DNA of 64,000 bases from Apus apus. Lineage: Eukaryota > Chordata > Aves > Apodiformes > Apodidae. The notes beneath the pieces were generated by a model. That model worked only from the letters and a program-made list of their open reading frames with translations, was not told the origin of the DNA and searched no databases. Below are positions 28,701-61,639 of the stretch, piece by piece. The stretch spans positions 2,222,056-2,286,055 of the forward strand of contig NC_067304.1 in assembly GCF_020740795.1 (NCBI RefSeq). The letters are read 5' to 3'. Each line of letters begins with the position of its first letter. The stretch's first letter is position 1. The position numbers and the translations under genes are program-made.

Positions 28701-29643
28701 TCCCACCCCACCTCCTATAGGAGCCCCATTGCAGAGGGAACCCTCAGCCCCCCCATTTTAAAGGGGTCTCCTCTCTACAGGGTGTCCTCATCCCCTGTCA
28801 TGGGAGGGGGGTCTCTGCTACAAAGGAGTCCCCCCTTTATAGGGCTCCTCACCTCTCCAGGATATAGGATTTCCTATGCCCTGTTATATAGGGGGTCCCC
28901 ACAGCTCCCCTCATCCTCCCAGTTCCATAGGGACCCCCAGGACAACTCACCCCGTTATACAGTGGGTTCCTGATGCACGGGGGTGTCCCCCATTATAGAG
29001 GGGTGTCCCCCATTATAGAGGGGTCCCCCCCCATTATAGAGTCGTGCCCCCCCATTATAGAGGTGTCCCCCATTATAGAGGTGTCCCCCATTATAGAGGG
29101 GTGCCCCCCCATTATCCAGCTGCCCCCCATTATACAGGTGCCCCCCCATTATGGAGGGGTCCCCCATTATAGAGGGGTGCCCCCCCATTATCCAGCTGCC
29201 CCCATTATACAGGTGCCCCCCCATTATGGAGGGGTCCCCCCCCCATTATAGAGGTGCCCCCCATTCCCCCCCCTTCTCACAAGGGGGCGGAGCTGCCCAT
29301 ACAGCGGTCCCAGCGCCCAGAGGTCCCCACAGGGTCACTCTACAGGGGCTCCCCCCTCCCCGCGCTCTATGGGGGTCCCGATCCCCCGTGACCCGCGGGC
29401 TCTCCCCGCACCACCCACCCCCTGCCCCCCCAACCCCCCCCAGACCTGAACGAGCAGCTTGACGTAGAGCAGCGGGTGGCTGGCGGCGGCCAGCCCCGCT
29501 CCCAGCACCACGAACAGCCCCTCGGCCCCCTCGGCCCGGCCGGGGGTCCCGGCGCTGCCCCCCGGGGCGCTGCCCCCCGGGGCGCTCCCGCCCGCCGCGC
29601 CACCAGGGGGCGCCAGGGCCGCGCGGGGCAGCGCCGCCGCCAT
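19680..29643 (-). CDS. MTCH1: MTCH1, mitochondrial carrier homolog 1 (spliced CDS, 12 exons)
   Basis: Degenerate member of the SLC25 carrier family in the outer mitochondrial membrane. The family (MTCH1/MTCH2) is known for inserting alpha-helical outer-membrane proteins and, for MTCH1, for promoting apoptosis. Exons on the minus strand: 29643-29446, 28485-28401, 27188-27082, 26478-26401, 26086-26029, 25589-25538, 24750-24691, 21685-21592, 21235-21188, 20998-20931, 20233-20158, 19754-19680. All have GT-AG borders and compatible phases, giving 332 residues. Carrier signatures are degenerate, as expected: [12 protein letters not shown] (about 54-65), [14 protein letters not shown] (about 174-187) and [15 protein letters not shown] (about 267-281). 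The match is closer to MTCH1 than MTCH2: [17 protein letters not shown] and [13 protein letters not shown] are recalled MTCH1 sequence. The start at 29643 is a choice. An in-frame ATG at 29703 would add 20 residues, but an NRF1 motif lies between the two. The C-terminal tail after FRR differs from what I recall of mammals. Confidence 0.95.
20158..20233 (-). CDS. MTCH1: MTCH1 exon 11
   Basis: Encodes G283 to Q308 ([20 protein letters not shown] and RYLSAQ). The donor is GTGAGG. Confidence 0.95.
20931..20998 (-). CDS. MTCH1: MTCH1 exon 10
   Basis: Encodes I261 to C282 ([20 protein letters not shown] and NC) plus two bases of G283. The donor is GTATGT. Very high similarity to the family. Confidence 0.95.
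21188..21235 (-). CDS. MTCH1: MTCH1 exon 9
   Basis: Encodes F245 to G260 ([16 protein letters not shown]). Begins after TCTTTCCAG and ends at GGG before GTACGT. Phase 0 at both ends. Confidence 0.93.
21592..21685 (-). CDS. MTCH1: MTCH1 exon 8
   Basis: Encodes V213 to N244 ([20 protein letters not shown] then [12 protein letters not shown]). The donor is GTGAGT. In the human long isoform, as I recall it, reading continues past this donor for 17 residues; here the read-through frame meets a stop after 19 codons. Confidence 0.95.
22188..22289. repeat. 22-base tandem repeat in MTCH1 intron 7
   Basis: Four almost perfect copies of a 22-base unit containing CTCTGGCCCTTCTTCC and a fifth partial copy. 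Pyrimidine-rich on the plus strand. No function visible. Confidence 0.9.
24691..24750 (-). CDS. MTCH1: MTCH1 exon 7
   Basis: Encodes S193 to F212 ([20 protein letters not shown]) plus two bases of V213. The frame requires the donor GTACGT at 24690. A better-looking GTGAGT donor starts four bases further on and would break the frame. Confidence 0.92.
25538..25589 (-). CDS. MTCH1: MTCH1 exon 6
   Basis: Encodes V176 to Y192 ([17 protein letters not shown]) and two bases of S193. Second degenerate carrier signature. The donor is GTGAAT. Confidence 0.95.
26029..26086 (-). CDS. MTCH1: MTCH1 exon 5
   Basis: Encodes residues 157-175 ([19 protein letters not shown]) plus one base of V176. The donor is GTGAGT. 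Confidence 0.95.
26401..26478 (-). CDS. MTCH1: MTCH1 exon 4
   Basis: Encodes residues 131-156 ([20 protein letters not shown] and RKVVKE), the charged loop typical of MTCH1 rather than MTCH2. The donor is GTGAGA. Confidence 0.95.
26688..26885 (-). mobile_element. CR1 fragment in MTCH1 intron 3
   Basis: The plus strand reads as the reverse complement of a CR1 3' end (GGTTTGGGTTGGGAAGGGAC, then CATCTAGATCCAACCCCC and CTGCCCTTCAACACT-type sequence). About 200 bases of a 5'-truncated copy. Its sense strand is the same as MTCH1. Confidence 0.9.
27082..27188 (-). CDS. MTCH1: MTCH1 exon 3
   Basis: Encodes residues 95-130, starting [20 protein letters not shown]. The GLFRGLTPR stretch is the carrier-family G-x-x-x-G type matrix-loop motif. 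Ends phase 0 at GSVKK. Confidence 0.95.
28401..28485 (-). CDS. MTCH1: MTCH1 exon 2
   Basis: Encodes [20 protein letters not shown] and on to FFTY, residues 67-94 plus one base. The acceptor TTTGGCAG and donor GTGAGC are good. Strongly conserved in the family. Confidence 0.95.
28978..29262. repeat. Minisatellite in MTCH1 intron 1
   Basis: About 14 imperfect copies of an 18-20 base unit, CCCCCCATTATAGAGGGGT, some with ATTATCCAGCTG or ATTATGGAGG variants. Read on the minus strand each unit has a TATAAT-like core followed by a G run. It ends about 185 bases downstream of the exon 1 donor. Confidence 0.95.
29446..29643 (-). CDS. MTCH1: MTCH1 exon 1 (N-terminus)
   Basis: Encodes residues 1-66, an Ala/Gly/Pro-rich N-terminus followed by [20 protein letters not shown], the first carrier-like helix. 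The donor after CAG is GTCTGG, weaker than consensus. A 15-base repeat encodes GGSAP units. The exon also carries a CTCF-type motif. Confidence 0.9.
29600..29613 (+). promoter_or_regulatory. CTCF-type motif inside MTCH1 exon 1
   Basis: CCACCAGGGGGCGC is identical to the core of the CTCF consensus as I know it. It sits inside coding sequence of MTCH1 exon 1, read on the plus strand, so it points towards FGD2. Occupancy cannot be seen from sequence. Confidence 0.65.
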
Positions 29644-29703: not shown

Positions 29704-30560
29704 CGCGGGGGGGGGAATGGGGGGGGGGAGCGTGGGTGGAACCACTGAGGGGATGGGGGGGGTGGAGATGGGGGGGGGGGGCGTGGAGGGGGGGAGGGGG
29801 TGTGGGGCACGGGGGGATGGGATGTGGGGATGGGATGGGGGGGATGTGGGGATGGGATGTGGGGATGGGATGGGGGGCATGGGAGGGATGGGGGGATGGG
29901 ATGGGGGGATGTGGGGATGGGATGTGGGGATGGGATGGGGGGATGGGATGGGGGGATGTGGGGATGGGATGGGGGGCATGGGGGGATGGGATGTGGGGAT
30001 GGGATGTGGGGCATGGGGGGATGGGATGTGGGGATGGGGTGTGGGGCATGGGGGGATGGGATGGGGGGGATGTGGGGATGGGATGGGGGGATGGGATGTG
30101 GGGATGGGGTGTGGGGCACGGGGGGATGTGATGTGGGGGTGTGGGGATGGGATGTGGGGATGTGGAGATGGGATGTGGGGATGGGATGGGGGGATGGGGT
30201 GTGGGGCATGGGGGGATGGGATGTGGGGATGGGATGGGGGGGATGTGGGGATGGGATGGGGGGATGGGGTGTGGGGATGGGGTGTGGGGCATGGGGGGAT
30301 GGGATGTGGGGATGTGGAGATGGGATGTGGGGATGGGATGGGGGGACGAGGGGCACAGGGGGATGTGGGGATGGGATGTGGGGCATGGGGGAACCCGGGG
30401 GGATGTAGGGCACGGGGGGATGCGGTGTGTGGATGGGATGGGGGGACATGGGGCATGGGGGGACGGGATGTGGGGTGGGGATGTGGGGCACGGGGGGATG
30501 TGGGGGTGGGATGTGGGGCACAGGGGAATCCGAGGGGATGTAGGGCACGGGGCGATGGGA
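29704..30560 (+). repeat. G-rich minisatellite between MTCH1 and FGD2
   Basis: About 0.85 kb of tandem units built from GGGGATGGGATGT and GGGGATGGGATGG variants, with G runs of 3-10 on the plus strand throughout. It is nearly free of stop codons in several frames on both strands, so long false reading frames (up to about 600 residues of His/Pro/Ser or Gly/Met/Trp) cross it. The plus strand has very high G-quadruplex potential. It fills most of the divergent intergenic region. Confidence 0.95.
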
Positions 30561-42124: not shown

Positions 42125-42430
42125 GCCCTGTAACACCTGGGGTTGGGTTCTGTAGGGTTTGGGTTCTGTAGGGGTTGGGTTCTATAGGGGTGGCAGAGGG
42201 GTTGGTTCTATAGGGGTTGGGTTCTATAGGGGTTGGGTTCTACACAGGTTGGGTTCTGTAGGGCTTGGGTTCTATAGGGGTTGGGTTCTGTAGGGGCTGG
42301 GTTCTACAGGGGTTGGGTTCTATAGGGGTTGGGTTCTATAGGGGTGGCAGAGGGGTTGGGTTCTATAGGGGTTGGGTTCTATAGGGGCTGGGTTCTGTAG
42401 GAGTCGGGTTCTACAGGGGTTGGGCTCCAC
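42125..42430. repeat. 17-base minisatellite TTCTATAGGGGTTGGGT
   Basis: About 17 imperfect copies, with variants TTCTGTAGGG and TTCTACAGGG and two internal GGTGGCAGAGG interruptions. G-rich on the plus strand. Confidence 0.95.
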
Positions 42431-43130: not shown

Positions 43131-43373
43131 AATGTGCTGGTGGTTGTTATGATTTAATTTTCTTTTCCTGCCTCCATCCAGGAATCCCCGCCGCGCTCTC
43201 CCCGCCAGGCTGGGCCCCCCGGGCTCACCCGCTGCCGCGGGACGTGACCCAGCCCCGGTGCCCGGGGGGGCACGAGCGGGATGACACGGGCAGGGAGAAG
43301 CCCCCAGAGCCGCCCACCCGGAAAGCTCAGCCCCTCCGTTCCCGCCGGGATAGCAGCCCGTCGGTGGAGGGCG

Positions 43374-44125
43374 GAGCTGAGGATGGGGGGCAGAGCTCAG
43401 GATGGGGGGCAGAGCTCAGGATGGGGGGGCAGAGCTGAGGATGGGGGGCAGAGCTCAGGATGGGGGGGCAGAGCTGAGGATGGGGGGCAGAGCTCAGGAT
43501 GGGGGGCAGAACTGGAGAACAGAGCTCAGGATAGGGGGCAGAATTAGGGGCAGAGCTCAGGATGCGGGGTAGGATGGGAGGCAGAGCTCAGGATGGGGGA
43601 CAGAATTGGAGAAAAGAGCTCAGGATGGGGGGCAGAGCTCAGGATGGGGGGCAGAATTGGAGAACAGAGCTCAGGATAGGGGGCAGAATTAGGGGCAGAG
43701 CCCAGGATGCGGGGTAGGATGGGGGGCAGAGCTGAGAATGGGGGGCAGAGCTCAGGATGGGGGGGCAGAGCTCAGGATGGGGGACAGAATTAGGGGCAGA
43801 GCTCAGGATGCAGGGCAGGATGGGGGGCAGAGCTCAAGATGGGGGGCAGAATTGGAGAACAGAGCTCAGGATGGGGGCAGAGCTCAGGATAGGGGGCAGA
43901 ATTAGGGGCAGAGCTCAGGATGGGGGGCAGGATGGGGGGCAGAGCTCAGGATGGGGGGCAGAGCTCAGGATAGGGGGCAGAATTAGGGGCAGAGCTCAGG
44001 ATGCAGAGCAAGATGGGGGGCAGAGTTCAGGATGGGGGGCAGAATTGGGGAACAGAGCTCAGGATGGGGGGCAAGATGTGGGGCAGAGCTCAGGATGTGG
44101 GACAGAGCTCAGGATGGGGGGACCG
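43374..44125. repeat. Minisatellite GGGGGCAGAGCTCAGGATG
   Basis: About 0.75 kb. A basic 20-base unit alternates with variants (GGCAGAATTAGGGGCAGAG, GAGAACAGAGCTC), making a higher-order pattern. Contains many SacI-type GAGCTC palindromes. Open frames across it are artefacts. Confidence 0.95.
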
Positions 44126-47490: not shown

Positions 47491-47614
47491 TCCTCGCACC
47501 ACGTTTTGATGTCGGCCCCGTAATGAAGCCAGGTAATAAATCCCAGCCTGCTGGGAAGTGGTGAATCAGCGGCCGGACACGCTGCCACCCCCGCGGTGGC
47601 ACCCGCCGCTCCTG

Positions 47615-47935
47615 TCCCCAGCCCTGTGTGCCCAGCCCTGTGTCCCCAGCCCTGTCCCCCCAGCCCTGTGTCCCCAGCCCTGTGTCCCCGGCCCTTTCCC
47701 CCCAGCCCTGTCCCCCCAGCCCTGTCCCCAGCCCTGTCCCCCCAGCCCCGTCCCCAGCCCCGTCCCCAGCCCTGTCCCCAGCCTTGTGTCCCCGGCCCTG
47801 TCCCCCCAGCCCTTTCCCCCCAGCCCTGTCCCCAGCCCTGTCCCCCCAGCCCTGTCCCCCCAGCCCTGTCCCCCCAGCCCTGTCCCCAGCCCTGTCCCCA
47901 GCCCTGTGTCCCCAGCCCTGTGTTCCCAGCCCGCC
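47615..47935. repeat. Minisatellite CCCAGCCCTGTCC
   Basis: About 24 imperfect copies of a 12-16 base unit (CCCAGCCCTGTCCCC, CCCAGCCCTGTGTCC). C-rich on plus. It creates false Pro/Ser/Gln-rich and Gly/Thr/Gln-rich frames on the two strands. Confidence 0.95.
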
Positions 47936-56399: not shown

Positions 56400-56504
56400 C
56401 AGCAGCCTGGGCTGGTGGGAGGTGTCCCTGCCCACGCAGGGGGGTTGGATCTAGATGATCTTTAAGGTCACATTCAACCCAAACCATTCCACGATTCTAT
56501 GATT
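56400..56504 (+). mobile_element. CR1 3' end, intergenic
   Basis: CAGCCTGGGCTGGTGGGAGG, then GTTGGATCTAGATGATCTTT and the terminal CACGATTCTATGATT. A short 5'-truncated copy. Confidence 0.92.
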
Positions 56505-58454: not shown

Positions 58455-58885
58455 GGATGGGTGATGCTGGGTGCAGGCAGCCCCGGCGCCAGGCTCAGCC
58501 CTCCCCGGCTGCCCCACATCAGCTCCCTTCCCACATCCCTGCTTCACTCCTGCACATCCCGCTGCCTCCTTTTCCCCCGGGAGCAGGGAAGGGTGCAGGC
58601 ATTCCGGGGGTGGCGGGAGGAGGGCGAGCCGGGTGAGCCAAGGGAGGATCTTGTGATCAGGGCTGGGAGCATCCTGCTGGCACCAGGGATCAGGGCTGGG
58701 AGTGAGGTGCACCTGCAAGTGTGCCAGGGCACGCCTGGCACCCGCTGCCAGCAGCTCGGCCCTGCCTGGCCACCTCCTCCCCCCGGGATGGGGGCTGGCA
58801 GCAGCCCCTCCTCCCTTCCTCTGCAGCAAAGGGATCCGGTGGGACCAGGACGGTGCCTCCTGCCACCCTGACTCCAGTGCTGCCA
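58455..58885 (+). repeat. Long inverted repeat, left arm
   Basis: 58455-58702 is the reverse complement of 59073-59320 with four mismatches in 248 bases and no gaps (98 percent). A 74-base excess then follows in this arm. 58786-58885 pairs more loosely (about 85 percent) with 58970-59066. Confidence 0.95.
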
Positions 58886-58969
58886 GGCACCTGAGGCTCC
58901 CCAGACTCTTTTGGCAGTGGTGGCATCTCCCTGGTCTATGGGCGATGAGGCCACGGTAGCCAGGCAAGT

Positions 58970-59320
58970 GGCAGCAGTCAGAGCAGCAGGATGCATCGTC
59001 CTGATCCCACCGGATCCATTTGCTGCAGAGGGAGGGGAGAGGGGCTGCTGCCACCCCCCATCCCAGCTGGAGCTCCCAGCCCTGATCCCTGGTGCCAGCA
59101 GGATGCTCCCAGCCCTGACCACAAGATGCTCCCTTGGCTCACCCGGCTCGCCCTCCTCCTGCCACCCCCGGAATGCCTGCACCCTTCCCTGCTCCCGGGG
59201 GAAAGGGAGGCAGCGGGATGTGCAGGAGTGAAGCAGGGATGTGGGAAGGGAGCTGATGTGGGGCAGCCGGGGAGGGCTGAGCCTGGCGCCGGGGCTGCCT
59301 GCACCCAGCATCACCCATCC
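58970..59320 (-). repeat. Long inverted repeat, right arm
   Basis: Reverse complement of the left arm. The unpaired spacer is about 85 bases (58886-58969). Outside the arms similarity stops at about 58450 and 59325. Mirror-image open frames on the two strands (including GWVMLGAGSPGARLSPPRLP read in both arms) come from this symmetry. Confidence 0.95.
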
Positions 59321-59394
59321 CCGGGGCACGGCCGCGCTGCTGCTGCAGCGCCCGCACCCTGCCCGCAGGCACCTGGCCAGGAGGGTGACGGAGG

Positions 59395-59480
59395 AGCCCG
59401 GCGAGGCTGCCCCGGTGACGTCCCAGCACCGCTGCTGACGTCTGAGGAGGGAAAAGCCCTCCCTAGAGCAAATAAGCGGC
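59395..59480. promoter_or_regulatory. Pair of CRE-like sites next to the inverted repeat
   Basis: GGTGACGTCC near 59414 and CTGACGTCTG near 59437, 23 bases apart in CpG-rich sequence, followed by AGAGCAAATAAGC, a weak TATA-like stretch. No exon recognised downstream. Confidence 0.35.
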
Positions 59481-59499
59481 CGGGCTGAGCAAACCCGGC

Positions 59500-61017
59500 T
59501 CGGCGGGTGGCTCCGGGCGGGGAGCTGGGTCCCATCTGGCCGCTGTTTACCTGCCCGCTGGAATCCACCCTGCAAACTTCCTCCTTGCACGGCTCTGATA
59601 AGGTGAAGGAGCCGCGTTTGGCCTCGCAGGGAGGACCCCGAGTCCGTGGGTTGGTGGGGGTTTCCTGGGGATGCCTTCATGCCAACAGAGTGTGGGTCCC
59701 AGCAAGGTTTTGGGGGATGCCAGCACCCAGGGCTAAAACCTATCCAGGTCAGCCCAGCACTGAGTAGCCCAGGAGCTGCAAACCGGTGGGCAGGGCTGCT
59801 GGGTCCCTACCTGGAGGGTTGGGGTGGGTTGTGGCATCCCTGTCACTGCCTCAGATTCCCCCCTTGGCTGGGTTTGCCTGCCCTGCATGTCCCTCCCTGC
59901 CCTGCATGTCCCTCCTTGACCTGCAGCTCTGGCTACTGCAGCGTGCAGGGACCTGCCACCACGCCAGGAGGGGACCATGCTGGGGACTCACCTGGCTGTT
60001 CCCCTGCCTGCCAGTGCCACTGCTGGGGGTTTCAAAGGCAGCCAGGGCTGCTCAGCCCCTCAGTGCAAACAGAAGCCACCATCTGCACAGCTCTGGGCAT
60101 GGGGGGGGGGCAACCAAAAAGTCCCCAAACTCCTCCCATCCCATCTTGCAACTTGCACCCAGGTCCTACATCCACCCCACGGGGTGAGGGGACCAGTGGG
60201 TGCCTAGCCAACAAGCACAGCCCCATGGTTCAACCCCTGGGCCCCACCACCCCTTCCCTGGGTGCTGCCAGGGAAAGGAGGGACCCTCATTCCCTTGTCC
60301 TCACTCAAGGTTTTGCAGAGTGGAGTTTCCAGCACGGCCCTTACTCCTTGGGTGGCTGCGTGAGGGGGAAAGGAGGCTGAGACCCGACACACTTCACTAC
60401 ACCCTGCAGTGGGGCACATCCACGCTCTCACCCGCCTTGCAAGCACCCTGGGAGGGGGGTGGGGGGGGTGGGAATTGCAGCTCTCGGAGCTGCGCTCCCA
60501 CCTCTATGGGGAAGGGGAAACTGAGGCAGCAGAGCAGGGGGCACCCGCAGCCCCGCGCTGTGAAAGCAGCCGGTTCGCGGTGTCACGAGCGGCTTCCAGG
60601 AAAGGAAGGAAGTGTGGGGGTCACCCAGCCCCGCTGCTGCCCTCTTCCAGCAAACAGCCCGGCCGGGCCGATAACGGGGCCCCGCAGGAACTGGGGGCTG
60701 CTGGCTGCACGAGCTGCCTGGAATGTGGGATTTGCCCCCCGGATTCCTCCCCCCAGTTCTTGCCCCCTCCGAGCAGGTCGCGGTGCCGGAGCAGCAGCTG
60801 GTGCTGCCCCCGCTTCCCACCCCAGTGCCACTTACTGGTGGTAATTGGGAGTTGCTGGGCTGGGGTTTGGGCCTGGGCTGTGCTGGAGTAGGGGGAGGTG
60901 CCTGGGGATGTGTCTCCCCACCAGGCTGCCCAGAGTCAAGGTGGGTCACCCCGGGGCAAGGCTGAAGCTGGATGTGCCATGGGCAGCTGCTGCTCCTGCA
61001 CAGCTGGGGAGCTGAGT
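59500..61017. other. Intergenic, no gene seen
   Basis: GC-rich sequence without a recognised domain. A G-rich run lies near 60450-60471. Confidence 0.5.
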
Positions 61018-61445
61018 CGTGGGATGGTTTGGGTTGCAAGGGACCTTCAAGATCATCTAGAGCCAAACCCCCACATGGGCAGGGACACCTCCCACCAGCT
61101 CCAAGCCCCATCCAACCTGCCCTTCAACACTGCCAGGGATGGGGCAGCCACAGCTTCCCTGGGCAACCTGGGCCACGGTCTCCCCACCCTCACAGCAAAG
61201 AATTTCCTCCTCATCTCCAACCTCCATCTCCCTCTTCCAGTTTTCATCCATCCCACTCATCCCATCCCTCCCTGCCCTTGTCCCAAGTCCCTCCCCAGCT
61301 TTCCTGGAGCCCCTTCAGGCACTGGAAGGTGCTCTCAGGTCTCCCTGGAGCCTTCTCTTCTCCAGGCTGAACACCCCAACTCTCCCAGCCTGTCTCCAGA
61401 GCAGAGCTGCTCCAGCCCTCAAATAGTCTCCGTGGCCTCCTCTGG
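61018..61445 (-). mobile_element. CR1 fragment, intergenic
   Basis: The plus strand is the reverse complement of CR1: starts TCGTGGGATGGTTTGGGTTG, passes CCCATCCAACCTGCCCTTCA and CTGGGCAACCTGGGCCACGG, and ends in the region CTTCTCTTCTCCAGGCTGAA. About 430 bases, 5'-truncated. Confidence 0.92.
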
Positions 61446-61639
61446 TCCTCTCCCACCACCTCCCACAGGGCACAGGCCCAGAGGCTGGCAAACCAGCAGA
61501 ACATCAGGTAGTCCCACCAAAGTAACGAAGCCCTGGAGCAGCACCAGGGCAGGATCTGAGCCCCTGCCACCATCCTGCCGTGCCAAGTGCCCCAGGGGGG
61601 ATCAGGAACTGGAGCCTGGAGCCTGCTCCACCCCGATAC

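Follow-up and report, generated by a model that had tools for sequence, protein, structure and literature searches.

Geometry of the inverted repeat

How do the two arms of an inverted repeat come to be nearly identical over one block and clearly diverged over the next? The question is raised by a repeat at positions 58455 to 59320 of a 64,000-nt window of Apus apus DNA (the window being the whole stretch that was analysed). The outer blocks of the left arm (58455..58702, + strand) and the right arm (59073..59320, - strand) are each 248 bp long and align to each other without a gap, with 98.4% complementarity and four differences (58570/59205, 58615/59160, 58647/59128 and 58656/59119, in window positions). 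The inner blocks, 97 bp each (58777..58873 on the + strand and 58976..59072 on the - strand), are 86% complementary and differ at 14 positions, which amounts to 14.4% compared with 1.6% for the outer arms. Between the outer and inner blocks, the gapped alignment places 74 bases that are found in the left arm only (58703..58776, + strand), either as an insertion here or as a deletion from the right arm. The centre comprises 102 bp (58874..58975, not assigned to a strand) if the ungapped inner arms are taken as its limits, and ~83 bp if the gapped alignment, which extends slightly further inward, is followed. The original prediction had described outer arms of 248 bases with four differences, inner arms of ~100 bases diverged by ~15%, an extra 74 bases in one arm and an 85-base spacer; all of these were recovered, the spacer length corresponding to the gapped alignment.

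The central spacer is not palindromic, as 419/500 shuffles scored as high. Outward of the arms no significant homology was detected: the local score was reached by 102/500 shuffles, and the anchored score was 0, reached by 200/200. For the homology and palindromy comparisons we shuffled two-letter blocks, a simpler procedure than a true dinucleotide shuffle. Gapped alignment could be extended outward to 58419/59348, which added 14 matching letters (CTGCAGCA and CCCCGG) by way of 14- and 22-base gaps. Longer ancient arms were rejected, given that the outward matches need gaps of this size and that shuffles score equally.

Divergence between the arms changes at the indel

Per base, the inner block is ~nine times more diverged than the outer block (14/97 vs 4/248; Fisher p = 9.9e-6), a contrast that is not due to chance. 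When the mismatches were ordered along the arm, the best change-point fell at arm position 252, 4 bases beyond the 74-bp indel, and a step of this strength was reached in 0/5000 runs with permuted mismatch positions. An abrupt, highly identical block thus sits next to diverged, collinear arm sequence, the arrangement expected of a homogenised inverted repeat. No rise in GC, as might be left by biased conversion, was seen in the outer block, for which GC was 0.685 and 0.690 in the two arms; the inner block had 0.701 and 0.639, and the 300 bp to the right of the repeat had 0.693. The lack of a GC rise counts against conversion, although a single short tract would not have to produce it.

The arm sequence is found at this locus only

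The window is part of contig C24 (6.88 Mb). Using the left outer arm as query against the 1.10-Gb assembly (110 contigs), we recovered only the two arms at the locus. The middle 370 bases likewise matched only themselves and, over bases 75-370, their own reverse complement. For very common repeats, match counts from this assembly search are lower bounds. A single 24-base probe, run to look for other bird sequences, found no exact match in either viral_contigs or genome_contigs. Since the arms were found at this locus only, an abundant repeat that inserted twice is not their source, and a MITE or foldback transposable element was rejected because no dispersed copies were found in the assembly. 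Judged by eye and with no statistic, the letters directly outside the repeat ends disagree, and thus no target-site duplication was seen there. The presence of two inverted copies at one locus, with no further copy found, is as expected for a local inverted duplication that is not transposon derived.

The repeat was also compared with other inverted pairs in the surrounding 264 kb, listed using blastn (E <= 1e-8, low-complexity filter on). The list held 32 inverted pairs with a spacer <5 kb, two of which (2/32) belong to the PIM1-upstream repeat, and no other inverted pair in the 264 kb combined a spacer <1 kb with arms >=200 bp long and >=95% identical. As a control for copy number, one arm was searched for each of 11 of the 30 other pairs. 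Each of these arms was matched 25 to 62 times in the 264 kb; for each block of the PIM1-upstream repeat there were 2 matches. Every one of the other inverted pairs that were checked (11/11) holds dispersed-repeat sequence, and several of the control sequences resemble what we take to be CR1.

The repeat lies between a probable FGD2 gene and PIM1

In a codon scan, a gene for a RhoGEF/PH/FYVE protein, which we take to be FGD2 by synteny, had exons at ~34.3-39.2 kb of the window. PIM1 follows on the contig's next stretch, at ~69.6-71.0 kb in window coordinates; an 86-aa piece of it matched structures of PIM-1 (2e-42) and PIM-2 (2e-29). When six peptides were compared with Pfam, the RhoGEF and FYVE pieces scored just below the curated cut-off and the PH and kinase pieces above it, while 2/6 had no match, one of them an MTCH1-like piece at 24.7 kb. 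Database support covers PIM1 and the RhoGEF, PH, FYVE and kinase domains, the other gene names being read from peptides. On this reading, we assume the gene order to be CDKN1A, RAB44, PI16, MTCH1, FGD2, PIM1, TBC1D22B, BRPF and MAPK13/14, presumably in agreement with human 6p21. The repeat is located ~19 kb beyond the last FGD-type exon found and ~10 kb ahead of the first PIM1 coding match and, given this position, is most likely intergenic.

The 300 bp that follow the right arm (59321-59620) are CpG-richer (o/e 0.72) and include two TGACGTC sites on the + strand (59416-59422 and 59436-59442, 96 and 116 bases beyond the arm), which match 7/8 bases of the motif and which we take to be CRE-like. 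A pair of such sites 90-120 bases past the right arm had been predicted; the sites are present at these distances, but by count the pair is weak and not significant, with 4 matches to TGACGTC in the window vs 1.79 expected and at least 4 in 15/100 shuffles. From its position, the pair adjoins the inverted repeat and is only a putative member of it. At window 60594-60602, ~9 kb short of where the PIM1 coding matches begin, a TTCCAGGAA motif, assumed by us to be of the STAT type, was noted by eye as a candidate regulatory site.

The predicted RNA hairpin follows from the repeat itself

It had been proposed that the locus, if transcribed, would fold into a dsRNA hairpin of ~250 bp. Such a fold was obtained: the + strand is predicted to give a near-continuous 248-bp stem at -874 kcal/mol, compared with a mean of -449 kcal/mol for 20 shuffles, and RNA from the - strand would have to form a similar stem. 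The low energy is a consequence of the near-perfect inverted repeat, and any such repeat would fold in this way. Searching the whole window against Rfam at the gathering score gave 0 matches (an undescribed family would not show), and no tRNA was found; on these grounds an RNA gene was rejected. Mismatches that preserve wobble (G-U) pairing numbered 2/4 on the + strand and 1/4 on the - strand for the outer block, and 3/14 and 6/14, respectively, for the inner block. With no G-U lean on either strand, selection for RNA pairing was also rejected, the numbers being too small to speak against a weak effect. A hairpin-RNA role for the repeat is unsupported.

Origin of the repeat

We suggest, with a probability of roughly 0.6, that a local inverted duplication took place here long ago and that gene conversion or template switching between the arms has since made their outer 248 bp alike. 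In this scheme, a single-locus inverted duplication of intergenic DNA would have arisen once, through template switching during replication or through break-induced copying, and the duplicated arms would then have aged to roughly 14% difference. One arm would subsequently have had its outer 248 bp overwritten from the other, by gene conversion or by template switching within the hairpin, and the copying would have ended where the arms stop aligning, at the 74-bp insertion or deletion. Which event came first, and how the copying took place, we infer from this one genome. Had the arms arisen by a single inverted duplication and exchanged nothing since, they would be of the same age throughout; because the inner part is the more diverged by so wide a factor, later overwriting is the simplest account. 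The original prediction had offered either a recent inverted duplication followed by an indel or ongoing gene conversion of the outer block; a recent duplication and an indel alone do not account for 14.4% vs 1.6%, and the version with conversion probably fits best. With neutral change at ~2e-9 per site per year, a difference of 14% would correspond to tens of millions of years and one of 1.6% to a few million. If the duplication is tens of millions of years old, related birds should share it. The structure is most simply explained by an ordinary process, with no need to assume a function. A structure of this kind may favour inversion of the 370-bp middle as well as the mis-mapping of reads.

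The step in divergence could also come from a second duplication or from selection. Growth in two steps would begin with an older 97-bp inverted pair, to which a later template switch added the inverted outer 248 bp, the copy being placed beside the right inner arm and omitting 74 bases of the left arm. This accounts directly for the divergence step falling at the 74-bp gap; however, the second copy must land collinear with the first, and the junction letters, inspected by eye, have no shared bases that could prime the switch, such that we consider two-step growth unlikely. Selection would be responsible if the outer block acted under constraint as a regulatory element in the FGD2-PIM1 interval and had been inversely duplicated, with the copies kept alike while the inner part drifted. 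The distance of ~10 kb to the first PIM1 coding match and, directly past the repeat, the CpG-richer stretch and the two CRE-like sites are compatible with such an element, but the outer block is itself CpG-poor (o/e 0.31 and 0.27) and this model does not predict that the block should end at the indel, which makes this explanation improbable in our judgement.

Explanations that invoke the hairpin are more doubtful. A hairpin-RNA locus, whose arms would be co-transcribed and kept complementary for use as dsRNA (siRNA, miRNA-like or ADAR substrate), agrees with the near-continuous stem and strongly lowered energy of the + strand fold, but any inverted repeat like this one would fold likewise, and with the Rfam search negative at the gathering score and the mismatches devoid of a G-U lean on either strand, we give it very little credence. 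It seems scarcely probable that in this lineage the 248-bp outer stem has been actively kept complementary as a working cruciform or dsRNA element upstream of PIM1, in which case arm-to-arm copying would be selected and not incidental. Long reads can carry inverted artefacts, and an inverted read-through joined into the contig would be a further way to obtain two arms. The possibility of an assembly artefact had been raised in the original prediction, but it fits poorly: the arms of a one-molecule artefact would differ by read error only, whereas the present arms show 18 substitutions, with 14 in the 97-bp inner block, together with the 74-bp indel and a non-palindromic 102-bp centre, all on a 6.9-Mb contig. 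We therefore assign an artefact only a slight chance.

Comparison with known systems

The proposed history of the repeat can be compared with known systems. In yeast, template switching has been described as homogenising the arms of inverted repeats, and this is said to occur in other organisms including humans (PMC8604942). There, as here, the arms of imperfect inverted repeats grow alike over part of their length; unlike the present case of 248 bp of intergenic DNA with putative conversion, the repeats covered in that paper are short and lie in yeast coding genes. The gene-converting palindromes of mammalian sex chromosomes similarly have inverted arms that are kept similar (PMC3723533, PMC8981503). 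They are large and located on the X or Y, in contrast to the 248-bp arms beside PIM1, where conversion is suggested by a single genome. Template switching has also been proposed to create and maintain the hairpin stems of RNA genes, with a single mutational event yielding a perfect stem (PMC8794818). The stem at the present locus is comparable in this regard but comes without a known or supported RNA gene. The PIM1-upstream repeat offers a compact, one-locus case in which the divergence step lies at a heterology, and bird relatives could show whether copying between the arms stopped there. In other respects it is an ordinary inverted duplication.

Other repeats and a PIM1-like match

A second inverted pair was found about 107-113 kb to the left of the PIM1-upstream repeat, near a gene that we take to be RAB44-like. 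Its arms (L018:5851-6475, equivalent to G000:C24:2167906-2168530, and G000:C24:2173232-2173856) are 625 bp long, 98% identical and separated by a 4.7-kb spacer; the pair is among the 11 used as copy-number controls. With 40 of 1371 candidates scored, the first ~167 bases were found at at least 41 further places, and the full length at two places only among the candidates scored. The 625-bp pair is a second local inverted duplication within the same 264 kb, only partly composed of repeat, and its presence counts against the PIM1-upstream repeat being unique in kind here.

A 69-aa piece of a PIM1 exon gave 10 matches. Besides PIM1 itself, one was close (L026, G000:C1:186374492-186374665; 90% over 58 aa) and the remaining matches were at 40-48%; with only one close match outside PIM1, the exon shows no large expansion of the PIM family. 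Within the window, positions 61014-61500 are presumably CR1-like, and 61014-61099 also form an inverted pair with 56411-56497 at 87%. Large G- or C-rich minisatellite arrays are present at window 28982-29265, 29747-30526, 42139-42424, 43365-44121 and 47611-47932.
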